From NCBI RefSeq assembly GCF_014873755.1, contig NZ_JADBEG010000001.1, positions 5,377,501 through 5,441,500 of the forward strand: a stretch of DNA of 64,000 bases, written 5' to 3'. A program made the position numbers and the translations under genes. Positions 31,145 through 52,861 of the stretch are shown here, in pieces. The first letter of the stretch is position 1. Each line of letters starts with the position of its first letter. The stretch is from Amycolatopsis lexingtonensis (GTDB lineage Bacteria; Actinomycetota; Actinomycetes; Mycobacteriales; Pseudonocardiaceae). Under the pieces are notes generated by a model. It was not told where the DNA came from. It worked only from the letters and a program-made list of their open reading frames with translations, and searched no databases.

Positions 31145-31295
31145 TGGTCCCGGGTCCGGAGGTCATGAACGCCCCTTTCACCGCGCCTGACGACAGGGCT
31201 TCGGCAAGTCGCGTCGGTGCAGCCCGCAGCGGTGCACCAGCGTCTTGAATGACTCATTCAGGACCTCCGAAGACCTGAATGAGTCATTCAAGACG
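31145..31295 (-). repeat. Extended TGAA-N7-TTCA repeat with 100-base tail, copy 1
   Basis: Reading the minus strand, a 55-bp nested palindrome (31241-31295) made of two 15-mers TGAATGACTCATTCA and TGAATGAGTCATTCA is followed by a tail of about 100 bases that ends in CATGACCTCCGGACCCGGGA. The tail contains a third box, TGAACGCCCCTTTCA (31166-31180). The whole unit is about 80 percent identical by eye to 42307-42455. It fills most of the spacer between the convergent stress-protein and hydrolase genes (31058-31402); the remainder, about 31296-31402, holds nothing recognisable. Confidence 0.85.
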
Positions 31296-31402
31296 TCGGG
31301 CGAGCGGGTCACCGACGGCAGCGTGGCCCGCCCGCGACCCCACCCGAGCCGCCCGCCCCGGAACTGTCGGTCCCCGCCGGTAGCGTGGAAAACGGGGGCT
31401 GC

Positions 31403-32350
31403 TCAGGTCCCCGAGGACACCGCCGCATCCGGCTCCACCGCGGGGTCCGGCGTCCCGGCCGGCCGCCCCGCCCGCAACAGATCCCCCCACCGCCCCCGGT
31501 CGTACTCAGCCGCCGGCGTCCCCGTCAAAAACTCCCGCAACGTCTCCGCGAACCGCGCCGGATCCGACCGGTGCGGGAAGTGCCCGGCCCCCTCGAACAG
31601 CACCAGCCGGCTGCCCGGCATCGCCCGGTGCGCGCGCAGCGCGTGGCCGCTCGGCACCACCCGGTCCTCGGTCCCCCACACCAGCAGCGTCGGGATCCCC
31701 TCGGTCAGGTAACACCGGTCCAGCATGTTGACCACCTGCCCGCGCCAGTCGACGACCGAGCGCAGCGTCCGCAGGAACGCCGACCGCGTGCCCGGCTCGA
31801 CCAGGCGGAGGTAGCGCGCGACCACGTAGTCGAGGTCGTCGGAGATCCGCAGCAGCTCGGCGAGCCCGCGCAGCACCGGCAACGCCGGCCGCGCGCCCAG
31901 CAGGGGCAGCACCAGCCCCGCGCCCGGCGCCGCCGCCAGGCGCAGCAGCGGGTGGACGCTCACCCCGACGCCGCCCGAACCGACCAGCACCAGGCGTTCG
32001 CAGCGTTCCGGGAACTGGTAGGCGAACTGCATCGCGACGCCGCCGCCGAGGGAGTGCCCGACCACCGTCACCCGGTCGACGTCGAGCGTCGTCAGCAGGT
32101 CGCGCATGCCGCACGCGTAGGCGGCGACCGAGTAGTCCGCGCGCGGTTTCGCCGAAGCCCCGTGGCCGAGCAGGTCGGGCGCGATGACCGTGAAGTCGTC
32201 CGCCAGCGCCTTCAGCAGTTCCAGCCACGTCGACGAGTCGTCGCCGATCCCGTGCAGGAATAACACCGCGGGTCCGCGCCCGGCCATCCGGTAGGCGCGT
32301 TCGTACCCGTGGACCACCCGGGTCCGCGGGGCGAAGGCGTCCGAGAGCAC
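31403..32350 (-). CDS. Alpha/beta hydrolase
   Basis: A 315-residue alpha/beta hydrolase. The oxyanion motif HGIGDDSSTW is near residue 34, the nucleophile elbow GHSLGGG near 100, the likely Asp in WGTEDRVVPSG near 232 and the His in GAGHFPHRS near 262. A hydrophobic cap region (about 125-180) suggests a lipophilic ester, epoxide or meta-cleavage product as substrate. No signal peptide. It starts GTG and is not clearly in an operon; the HAAS protein gene upstream ends in a strong hairpin. Confidence 0.87.
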   Translation of the reverse strand: MLSDAFAPRTRVVHGYERAYRMAGRGPAVLFLHGIGDDSSTWLELLKALADDFTVIAPDLLGHGASAKPRADYSVAAYACGMRDLLTTLDVDRVTVVGHSLGGGVAMQFAYQFPERCERLVLVGSGGVGVSVHPLLRLAAAPGAGLVLPLLGARPALPVLRGLAELLRISDDLDYVVARYLRLVEPGTRSAFLRTLRSVVDWRGQVVNMLDRCYLTEGIPTLLVWGTEDRVVPSGHALRAHRAMPGSRLVLFEGAGHFPHRSDPARFAETLREFLTGTPAAEYDRGRWGDLLRAGRPAGTPDPAVEPDAAVSSGT

Positions 32351-32410
32351 CCGATCAGCTCAGCACGCCCGCGTGCCCCCGACGTTTCCGGCACGTTCGG
32401 ATCGGGTGAA

Positions 32411-32444
32411 CGCCGGGAGCGGGCCCCGACCCGCGCTCCCGGCG
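32411..32444 (-). terminator. Hairpin terminator after the HAAS-protein gene
   Basis: A perfect 11-bp inverted repeat (CGCCGGGAGCG / CGCTCCCGGCG) with a 12-base loop lies 11 bases past the stop of the minus-strand HAAS-domain gene. Confidence 0.72.
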
Positions 32445-32455
32445 TCCGTTCCCCC

Positions 32456-50800: not shown

Positions 50801-51602
50801 CGGTGCGGATGCCGAGCACCACCCGAGTCCGGCTGTCCGGGCCGGTCGTGGCGGCGACCAGCGCGTCGAGGAAGCGGGTGCGTTCCACGTCGTCCTGGCA
50901 GAGCGTGAAGACCTCTTCGAACTGGTCGACGACCAGCACGACGTCCTCGCCGCCGTCGTCGGTCAGCTGGCGGGCGGCCAGGCCCAGGTTGCGGGGGTGC
51001 GCGGCGAAGTCGTCGAGCAGGGCGCCGGCCGGGACACCGAGCGCGGCGGCGAACCTGACCGCGCACTCGTGCAGCGGCCGGGCACCCGGGGTGAGCAGCA
51101 CCACCGGTCCCTTGACGGCGGGCAGCAGACCGGCGCGCAGCAGCGAGGACTTGCCCGATCCGGACGCGCCGAGGACGGCGAGAAAACGTTGTCTCGACAG
51201 CCGCGCGACGAGCTTTTCGATCAGCTTGTCCCGGCCGAAGAATCGCCGCGCGTCAGCTGAGGTGAATGCGGACAGGCCGACGTAAGGCGGGATTTCCCCG
51301 GATTCGGGCTCGGGCGGTGAATCGGCACCGTCCCGGCGCGACTCTTCGGCGACGGCGTGCCACCGCTCTTCCCATTCACCGGGGACCCCGCCGCAGGCCC
51401 GGACGTAGGCCAGAGTCACCGCCAAGCTGGGGAGTTTCCGTCCGCCGGCGGCTTCGGACAGCGTGCCGGCCGAGTAGTGCGCACGACGGCCGAGCTCGCG
51501 ATAAGTGGGGTTCCCGGCGCTCTCGCGCAAACGCCGGAGATCGGCGGCGAATTCGGTCAGCAGATCGTCCCCGGGATCCAGGGGTCGCTCCGGACGCGGC
51601 AC
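47823..51602 (-). CDS. HTH-STAND NTPase-TM-WD40 protein, 1259 aa
   Basis: A large signalling ATPase. In order: a Cro/C1-type HTH (about 15-90, [20 protein letters not shown]), a P-loop STAND NTPase module with [12 protein letters not shown] near 126, Walker [15 protein letters not shown] near 146 and Walker [13 protein letters not shown] near 215, a helical region, one membrane helix ([20 protein letters not shown] near 545), then 14 WD40 repeats to the C-terminus (about 620-1259), each ending RLWD-like. Fourteen repeats suit two seven-bladed propellers outside the membrane. Such proteins are signal sensors; some STAND proteins act in phage defence, but nothing here shows that. GTG start with AGGAGG. 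Confidence 0.88.
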
Positions 51603-51742
51603 CCGTCCTCCTGTTTCTCTTTTTCCGGTTCGGACACCGTATCCCCATTGCCGCCCCTTCCGCGGCCGTTCGGCGCGAACGGCGTGAAGATCGTCACCGC
51701 CCGCCGGGAAGCAATGCGGGCACCGGGGCGTTGACCCCGGTT

Positions 51743-52738
51743 GTGAGCTCACTGCCTGACGTGCCGCTGTCCGTGCTCGACCTGTCCCCCGTGTCGGAGG
51801 GGAACACCGTCGGCGAGACGCTGCGCAACACCCTGGACCTCGCCCGCGCCGCGGAACGGCTGGGCTTCAACCGCTACTGGCTGGCCGAGCACCACAACAT
51901 GCCCGGCATCGCCAGCTCGGCGACGTCGGTGCTGATCGGCCACGTCGCCGACGCGACCGAGCGCATCCGCGTCGGCTCGGGCGGCGTGATGCTGCCCAAC
52001 CACGCGCCCCTGGTGGTCGCCGAGCAGTTCGGCACCCTGGAGGCGTTCCACCCGGGCCGCATCGACCTCGGCATCGGCCGCGCGCCCGGCACCGACCAGC
52101 GCACGGCACTCGCCCTGCGCGGCCCCGGCGGGCTGTCGGCGGACAACTTCCCGGAGCACCTGCAGGAGCTGATCGGCTACTTCACCCATTCGGAGGCCCG
52201 CGGCGTCAACGCGGTGGTCGCGGAGGGCAACCAGCCGCCGGTGTGGCTGCTGGGTTCCAGCGGCTTCAGCGCCCAGCTCGCGGGACGGCTGGGGCTGCCG
52301 TTCTCCTTCGCCCACCACTTCGCGGCCGAGAACACGATCCCGGCGGTGCAGCTGTACCGGGAGAACTTCCAGCCTTCCGCGGTCCTTTCCGAGCCGTACG
52401 TGATGCTGGGCGTTTCGGTGGTCGCGGCGGAGACCGACGAGCGCGCGCAGTTCCTGGCGGGGCCGTCGGGCCTGACGTTCCTGAGCCTGCGCCGCGGGCG
52501 GCCGATCGCGCTGCCGACGCCGGAGGAGGCCGCGGAGTACCCGTACACCGAGATGGACCGGGCGTTCCTGGCCGACCGGTTCGGGTCGAGCATCATCGGC
52601 TCGCCGGAGACGGTGCAGAAGGGGTTCGAGCAGCTGCTCGCGGACACCGGCGCGGACGAGCTGATGATCACGACGATGGTGCACGGGCACGCGGACCGGG
52701 TGCGGTCGTACGAGCTGCTGGCCGGCCTCAAGTCCTGA
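51743..52738 (+). CDS. Luciferase-like (LLM) flavin-dependent oxidoreductase
   Basis: A 331-residue TIM-barrel monooxygenase of the bacterial luciferase superfamily. It opens with [19 protein letters not shown], carries [18 protein letters not shown] near residues 45-62 and [20 protein letters not shown] near 76-95, and ends with an [13 protein letters not shown] flavin/substrate region. It uses reduced FMN or F420 from a separate reductase; the substrate is unknown. GTG at 51743 is chosen on the conserved N-terminus; its ribosome site is weak. Divergent from the STAND gene with a 140-base shared promoter gap. Confidence 0.87.
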
Positions 52739-52806
52739 CGCGGCAGCGCCGGGCCCCGCAACCAGCCCCACGACGCCACCCGAGCCGAGCCGGGCCACGC
52801 GGCGAG

Positions 52807-52861
52807 CGTCTTGAATGACTCATTCAGGTCGTCGGAGGTCCTGAATGACTCATTCAAGACC
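52807..52861. repeat. Paired TGAA-N7-TTCA palindrome
   Basis: A 55-bp nested palindrome with TGAATGACTCATTCA at 52812 and 52842, 30 bases apart, 69 bases after the LLM stop. The two boxes are identical, so unlike the other pairs the inner heptamers do not mirror each other exactly. Confidence 0.85.

Follow-up and report, generated by a model that had tools for sequence, protein, structure and literature searches.

Results

A palindromic box occupies intergenic spacers of A. lexingtonensis

The window analyzed here is a stretch of 64,000 nucleotides from the genome of Amycolatopsis lexingtonensis (G000; one contig, 10,737,921 bases), whose nearest named relatives are Amycolatopsis species, with A. 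eburnea at 98% for the test protein. Its spacers hold a recurrent 15-nt dyad, TGAA-N7-TTCA (the box), and four copies of a near-perfect palindrome of 53 bp that contains two such boxes (the element). The exact box occurs 13 times in the window, starting at 31166, 31246, 31276, 42151, 42232, 42312, 42342, 47503, 47565, 47595, 47698, 52812 and 52842, whereas 100 shuffles gave a mean of 0.10 and a largest count of 1. Two imperfect boxes (42422 and 47654) are also visible in the sequence. Genes and spacers were predicted with a home-made gene caller trained on the Amycolatopsis sample, on which all spacer statistics depend. By this caller, all 13 exact boxes lie in spacers, and both imperfect boxes lie in the same spacers. 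The initial annotation, which had listed these boxes as intergenic only and estimated well under one copy per window by chance, is thus borne out on these points.

The same holds beyond the window. The whole genome contains 829 boxes against 57 matches to the same pattern reversed, which served as the genome control. In an evenly spaced sample of G000 (40 stretches of 20 kb, 800 kb in total, not chosen for elements), 32 of 40 boxes are intergenic, with spacers making up 12.4% of the bases; this corresponds to 0.32 boxes per kb of spacer, compared with 0.011 per kb of coding DNA. Hence neither a count at the shuffled level nor an equal density in coding sequence, the two outcomes that the initial annotation had named as speaking against its claim, was seen. 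A sharper form of the rule, TGAAnGnnnCnTTCA, gives 31 intergenic matches and a single coding one in this sample. The boxes do not form one class: eight of the 13 exact boxes make up the four full elements, four are remnant-like, and the one at 47698 belongs to a separate hairpin. The features of the window are as follows.

31162..31180, plus strand: unpaired box that has a left but no right terminus (GTCA-TGAACGCCCCTTTCA), interpreted as half of an element within a larger mosaic repeat
31242..31294, minus strand: 53-bp element of subfamily A (GTCT-box-15 nt-box-AGAC); the genes on either side converge (stop 31057 on the plus strand, stop 31403 on the minus strand)
42147..42165, plus strand: unpaired box that has a left but no right terminus (GTCA-TGAACGAGTCGTTCA), interpreted as half of an element
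42228..42250, no strand assigned: solo-box form GTCA-TGAACGACCCGTTCA-TGAC, 23 bp, both termini and one box
42308..42360, plus strand: 53-bp element, variant of subfamily A with fully compensated arms (TGGGTCA/TGACCCA), flanked by two minus-strand genes
42418..42440, no strand assigned: degenerate box (the imperfect box 42422)
47499..47521, no strand assigned: solo-box form GTCT-TGAATGAGTCGTTCA-TGAC, 23 bp
47561..47613, plus strand: 53-bp element of subfamily A, flanked by convergent genes (stop 47492 on the plus strand, stop 47823 on the minus strand)
47653..47713, no strand assigned: conserved hairpin CTGAAGG...CCTTCAG, with the exact box 47698 as right arm and the imperfect box 47654 as left arm, 44 nt apart
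52808..52860, plus strand: 53-bp element, subfamily A, 69 nt past the stop of gene 51761-52738

Two boxes at a fixed distance form a 53-bp element

Box pairs separated by 15 nt occur 307 times in G000 and never with the reversed control. When the gap was left free between 0 and 30 nt, the number of pairs rose only to 313, of which 307 have a gap of exactly 15 nt, which indicates that the spacing is essentially fixed. Up to 614 of the 829 boxes, background boxes included, stand in pairs. The alignment of 40 copies of the commonest subfamily, A, gave the 53-bp consensus GTCT-TGAATGASTCATTCA-GGTCTTCGGAGGTCC-TGAATGASTCATTCA-AGAC, in which most positions are conserved at 0.9–1.0, the exceptions being the two box centers and three loop positions. 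The box centers are restricted to C or G (GC in 17 copies, CC in 11, CG in 11 and GG in 1). Conservation drops at once outside the GTC...GAC ends, apart from a C before GTC in 72% of the copies, and the flanks of most copies are unshared. The four pairs at 30 nt claimed for the window are all present, but their enclosing palindromes are not uniformly 55 bp: this length applies at 31241-31295 and 42307-42361, the palindrome at 52808-52860 has 53 bp, and that at 47550-47624 is longer and weaker (84% complementary).

The subfamily-A arm has 246 matches on each strand (control 0); among the matches listed in the first 1 Mb, most are close pairs. A larger mosaic repeat, in which boxes follow at about 80 nt, encloses nine of the 40 copies. 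In the 31 non-nested copies, no target-site duplication was seen, with the identity between left and right flanks close to the shuffled values for k = 2–11 and the largest excess, at k = 11, under two standard deviations. As RNA, the four window elements fold into hairpins of −30 to −43 kcal/mol (z −5.8 to −11.3) with a stem of about 20–25 bp. The element at 31242..31294 reaches −33.8 kcal/mol on the plus strand and −36.7 on the minus strand (z −9.0 and −8.2), and that at 42308..42360 reaches −43.1 kcal/mol (z −11.3).

The element belongs to a superfamily under two constraints

Since the pattern used for counting per genome requires the outer letters of the box, it cannot test them; they were tested with a letter-free screen for inverted repeats and the subfamilies built from it. 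In 560 kb of spacer sequence from the analyzed loci, a part of which, in G000 and in its relatives, had been chosen for holding elements, the screen detected 358 long palindromes. Their lengths peak at 53 (48 palindromes) and 55 (46), and odd lengths prevail. Removal of those outside 44–66 nt left 262, of which 173 chain without gaps into one superfamily, all of odd length. Of the 42 singletons, 20 are odd, as are four of the nine groups of at least two members, the superfamily being counted in. After removal of even-length repeats, 37 subfamilies were distinguished within the superfamily. Their members come from Amycolatopsis, Prauserella and Saccharomonospora records and from other genomes of the genus, and their delimitation depends on an inverted-repeat finder of our own, which allows no gaps, and on thresholds of 72% and 83% for clustering. 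Over both arms, the subfamily consensuses retain T at 0.76, G at 0.86, A at 0.96 and A at 0.91 on the left of the box, G(5) and C(9) at 1.00, and T at 0.93, T at 0.99 and C at 0.76 on the right.

A second set, in which G5 and C9 were not demanded, was collected with YGAA-N7-TTCR found twice at a distance of 15 (142 hits, 93 distinct, 46 distinct box pairs), from loci partly chosen for having elements. Here 91 of 92 boxes retain G5 and all 92 retain C9, which refines the box rule to TGAAnGnnnCnTTCA, a TGAA-n-G-nnn-C-n-TTCA type dyad with fixed G and C. The outer letters recur as the initial annotation had described, but its variable heptamer is not free. At positions 4, 6, 8 and 10, which are free, all four letters occur, and there the arms are complementary to each other in 83–89% of cases, compared with 25–32% after shuffling. 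The center (position 7) carries G or C in 85 of 92 boxes and pairs in 78% versus 42%. Because the arms compensate each other while each arm keeps G5 and C9, two constraints act together, one on pairing and one on the dyad letters of each box.

Other repeats were noticed in these sequences. Among repeated 13-mers of the 800-kb sample, ACGCCACATTGGG has 20 copies and CCGTGAAGGCCTC 14, and the palindromes containing them fall in the same superfamily. Further dispersed palindromes with another geometry and of even length, of the GTCGTGAGTGGTAAGG type, occupy the same gene-end spacers in relatives (for example in L049 and L050, behind the helicase gene), and long GACACGCGTGAT repeats also occupy gene-end spacers of Amycolatopsis relatives.

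Elements lie mostly at gene ends, whose palindromes differ between relatives

For the 37 occupied spacers of the analyzed G000 loci, expected values were taken from the 800-kb sample. Convergent spacers are overrepresented (15 versus 6.1 expected by length) and divergent spacers underrepresented (3 versus 12.4). In the 19 tandem spacers, the element lies in the stop-side half in 15, and none of 47 pair elements lies inside a gene. The named relatives agree, with 0 of 18 elements in divergent spacers (4.1 expected, p 0.02) and 14 of 14 in the stop-side half of tandem spacers. In G001, a genome of the same genus, the corresponding values are 1 of 26 (5.2 expected, p 0.046) and 12 of 14. Long spacer palindromes overall, many of which are the elements themselves, number 137 in 279 convergent spacers and 20 in 518 divergent ones.

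The colinear spacers 42078-42484, 47493-47822 and 52739-53282, which hold pair elements in the window, were compared in 15 relatives, where they contain different subfamilies, other palindrome families or none, depending on the species. No palindrome was found at the threshold used in the two divergent spacers of the colinear stretch; of the remaining colinear spacers, only 43214-43320 has one, a different hairpin present in three species. This looks like turnover at gene ends and not like one shared old insertion.

Unpaired boxes and a conserved hairpin

The boxes at 31166, 42151, 42232 and 47503 retain an element terminus on one or both sides and resemble element halves or remnants. The solo box at 42228..42250 is consistent with a full element having lost one of its 30-bp repeats, although this is not proven. 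Among 33 unpaired boxes in the analyzed G000 loci, four have both termini (GTCN/NGAC), seven the left only, four the right only and 18 neither. Two of the four two-terminus boxes are those of the window, and the other two are equally readable as half elements; several of the 18 terminus-free boxes are background within genes.

The hairpin at 47653..47713 behaves differently. Its right arm follows the box rule and, together with its flank (23 nt, with one A/G position open), is found without mismatch in 24 of 80 named relatives, but the arm spacing is not 30. The distance between arm starts is about 44 nt in the window and in the closest 13 of these 24 relatives, and about 33 nt in the remaining 11 (the A. 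orientalis group). The hairpin is vertically conserved and not a mobile copy today. We read it as a gene-end hairpin under selection, which by origin is perhaps an old fixed element.

The same spacer ends at the stop of gene 47823-51104 (minus strand), which encodes an nSTAND NTPase with WD40 repeats and is convergent with a UvrD-like helicase gene. Beside this stop lies another inverted repeat, GTTGTTCGG...CCGAACAAC (47776-47809), which is kept in 18 of 19 aligned relatives and is likely an ordinary terminator hairpin. The only known RNA family found in the window is a glycine riboswitch (RF00504, 55.3 bits; 24294-24387, minus strand), upstream of a large minus-strand gene predicted at 21327-24185.

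Distribution in the genus, the family and beyond

Related Amycolatopsis genomes, a check proposed in the initial annotation, contain TGAA-type pairs in 54 of 80 cases, with 0 to 471 copies per genome and no match to the reversed control in any of the 80. Examples are G001 (471 pairs), G000 (307), G068 (261), G101 (150), G016 (124), G092 (122) and G084 (114). G001, with 6.9 Mb and 1332 boxes, is the densest genome found, and the coding share in its sample is only 0.72. With the YGAA rule, elements were found in 119 of 297 genomes of the family Pseudonocardiaceae, in 30 of 46 genera (control 0). Outside the family, four of 518 genomes have them: two of 207 in the same order (G059 with 8 and G490 with 4) and two of 311 in other orders of the class (G583 with 3 and G632 with 2). 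The eight elements examined in G583, G490 and G632 lie behind predicted genes or between convergent ones, as called by a program trained on Amycolatopsis; ten neighboring proteins of such distant elements were scanned, and eight belong to ordinary families while two have no match. The patchy occurrence fits either horizontal arrival or loss. A search for carriage on plasmids or phages with a 71-base query (window 52800-52870) gave no match in PLSDB and INPHARED, whose Amycolatopsis content was not checked.

Discussion

The element is probably a mobile, non-autonomous palindromic repeat of Pseudonocardiaceae that resembles REPINs, doublets of repetitive extragenic palindromic (REP) sequences, and that would act as a hairpin at the 3´ ends of transcripts; its mover and its function are both inferred. 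Mobility is well supported as read from the pattern of copies, not from an observed event: the units are near-identical, their flanks mostly unrelated, their occupancy lineage-specific and their number variable from 0 to 471. Of the three candidates proposed in the initial annotation, the mobile repeat is therefore upheld in this sense, but the target-site duplication of a miniature inverted-repeat transposable element (MITE) was not detected. A terminator agrees with the position and the paired arms and disagrees with the absence of a U-tract. A protein-binding array is partly retained, since protein binding is possible where each 15-bp box keeps its own dyad letters; arrays, however, are secondary, and the unit is the doublet.

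The commonest unit here can be written as GTC-N-(TGAA-n-G-nnn-C-n-TTCA)-15 nt-(same box)-N-GAC, and the other subfamilies vary its outer letters while keeping the geometry. Its symmetry is nested, with a dyad in each box and boxes that are exact or near reverse complements of each other, so that either strand can fold into one hairpin. Whole doublets would be spread by a dyad-reading enzyme, and the fixed G and C, together with the exact box spacing of 30 nt, are most likely what a putative mobilizing or binding protein reads. Most copies sit a short way past a stop codon; once transcribed there, the hairpin most likely marks and protects mRNA 3´ ends and separates converging transcripts in both directions. 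Given the missing U-tract, classical intrinsic termination fits less well than Rho-dependent termination followed by trimming as far as the hairpin, or than shielding from exonucleases. Roles of REP hairpins are mentioned in PMC8049555. Some single boxes may be remnants left after the loss of one half, and a few copies might persist as permanent hairpins at gene ends.

Several observations weigh against this reading. The Y1 transposase of the RAYT/IS200 type (RAYT, REP-associated tyrosine transposase; PF01797) was not found in any of the 36 genus genomes searched, and no reverse transcriptase (RVT_1) was found in G000. In the alignment of 40 copies, the element is not followed by a run of T and thus does not qualify as a canonical intrinsic terminator. 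In G001 the excess in convergent spacers lacks significance (p 0.07), as does the context bias in the 800-kb sample taken alone (13 elements), and in the pooled set of G084, G003 and zero-copy genomes two of three elements lie in divergent spacers. The loop is asymmetric without an orientation bias relative to the genes (11 same and 10 opposite in tandem spacers). A second gene-end hairpin is only weakly rarer in occupied than in other spacers: 0 of 20 versus 15.5% of 400 in one tandem class (p 0.016), 12% of 25 versus 22% of 175 in the other (p 0.38), and 27% of 33 versus 40% of 130 in convergent spacers (p 0.12); missing native hairpins are thus only suggestive. Finally, neither transposition nor excision was observed, and no clean empty site either: the spacers of relatives are too diverged, and the repeat-in-repeat comparison yielded no clean junction.

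Two candidate movers were rejected. For the RAYT/IS200-type transposase, PF01797 was found in none of the 36 genus genomes. Of 25 further genomes that bear elements, 22 likewise gave no match, among them all four from outside the family, while G130, G151 and G373 did. The model itself matches five of 14 control genomes, E. coli among them. A past loss of the RAYT or a remote homologue is conceivable. Reverse transcriptase occurs in 53 of 80 genus genomes but in none of G000, G068, G101, G016, G092 and G084, which carry 114 to 307 pairs; this indicates that this enzyme is not needed today. In G583, an open reading frame of 149 amino acids (L239, 4040-4489) lies between two identical elements 576 bp apart and has no Pfam or NCBIfam match; it is a long-shot candidate for the mover. 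Each of these two elements also sits behind a predicted gene.

The rival explanations share part of this evidence. A purely selfish palindromic repeat, found at 3´ ends because insertions into genes or promoters are lost, is in our view rather unlikely, yet it accounts directly for a copy number of 0 to 471 within one genus, for the absent orientation bias, and for near-identical copies and mosaics of halves. It is less at ease with arms that stay complementary across subfamilies and with a hairpin of the same box rule conserved in 24 of 80 named relatives. Both leave some room for it, since the hairpin may serve transposition alone and the conserved hairpin may differ in origin. We regard as improbable a two-site operator or nucleoid-protein site, in which one dimer would bind each 15-bp dyad and the 30-bp spacing would fix two dimers. 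The dyad letters TGAAnGnnnCnTTCA, kept in each box and superfluous for a plain hairpin, and the fixed 30-nt spacing are what such a site predicts; an operator would not avoid divergent, promoter-bearing spacers as the elements do in G000, does not require free positions to vary with compensation between arms, and is hard to reconcile with 26 of 80 genus genomes that lack a TGAA-type pair. A likeness to Fur/Zur and LexA boxes was dropped because the fixed letters differ. Intrinsic terminators that evolved independently and became alike by convergence are the explanation to which we give very little credence. Strong folds at gene ends, and a hairpin at 47653-47713 that behaves as a conserved gene-end hairpin, would suit it, whereas 53-bp units nearly identical in 40 copies, with exact spacing, odd length and no U-tract, do not; the other long hairpins show no odd parity (20 of 42 singletons odd).

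The mobile, hairpin-forming repeat that we favor is closest in anatomy to the REPIN, a REP doublet that forms a hairpin (PMC3116915). According to that paper, REPINs likewise consist of two inverted, individually palindromic repeats at a fixed spacing within one long hairpin; they are extragenic and of high copy number, with remnant-like singlets and compensatory changes in the stem. An excess of doublets over singlets, a further REPIN feature, is also found here. The initial annotation, which knew of no described element with this rule, is in this respect partly wrong, although the defining RAYT was not found here. Box starts are 30 bp apart here compared with 71 bp for GI REPINs (PMC3116915), and the present element is actinobacterial, with symmetric GTC...GAC ends, 37 subfamilies of fixed geometry and near-invariant G5 and C9. 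The GTAG and CGTC REPs are also small palindromes near 3´ ends, between convergent and unidirectional genes, the CGTC type also seems to lack a dedicated transposase, and dimers are common, as PMC3733652 describes. These REPs, however, have an unpaired tag at one end where the end letters pair here, and the CGTC REPs have stems of 8–9 bp with loops of 4–5 nt, far from the stem described above (PMC3733652). In the main text of that paper, as far as it was available, the words Actinobacteria and Amycolatopsis do not occur. Because the anatomy is that of a REPIN without a RAYT and neither the tag nor the short stem of the GTAG/CGTC REPs is present, we call the element REPIN-like.

Bacterial interspersed mosaic elements (BIMEs) are mosaics of regularly spaced REPs (PMC2817692). 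The nine nested subfamily-A copies, with boxes at about 80 nt, recall this arrangement; again no RAYT was found here. We know of no BIME unit or linker with a sequence related to the present element. MITEs are short, non-coding, dispersed sequences with inverted repeats, and so is the element, but target-site duplications were not detected, and the arm matches listed showed no parent transposon with such ends. With intrinsic terminators it shares the stable hairpin and not the U-tract. The sequence strings led to no publication, and none on the element was recognized among the titles and abstract beginnings listed for its topic, which for the larger topics were a part of the matches; the search covered few subscription papers.

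Descriptions of REP-like repeats come mainly from Proteobacteria, and those of REPINs place them alongside RAYT transposases. Against this background stands a large actinomycete superfamily with REPIN anatomy in which no such enzyme was found. We tentatively suggest that it may represent a separate class of mobile hairpins, independent of RAYT/IS200 transposases and of reverse transcriptase: a putative actinobacterial protein would read the TGAAnGnnnCnTTCA dyad in 30-bp doublets while the other letters drift, giving rise to subfamilies in each lineage, and the elements would have spread in Pseudonocardiaceae and sporadically in other orders as portable, two-way gene-end hairpins. The double constraint on hairpin and dyad letters separates structural need from what a protein probably reads, and the element is a concrete bait sequence for finding its mover. 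Spacers of this kind evolve by repeat turnover and call for caution. Intrinsic termination is debated in actinomycetes, and the elements make hundreds of natural gene-end hairpins available for termination tests in these bacteria.

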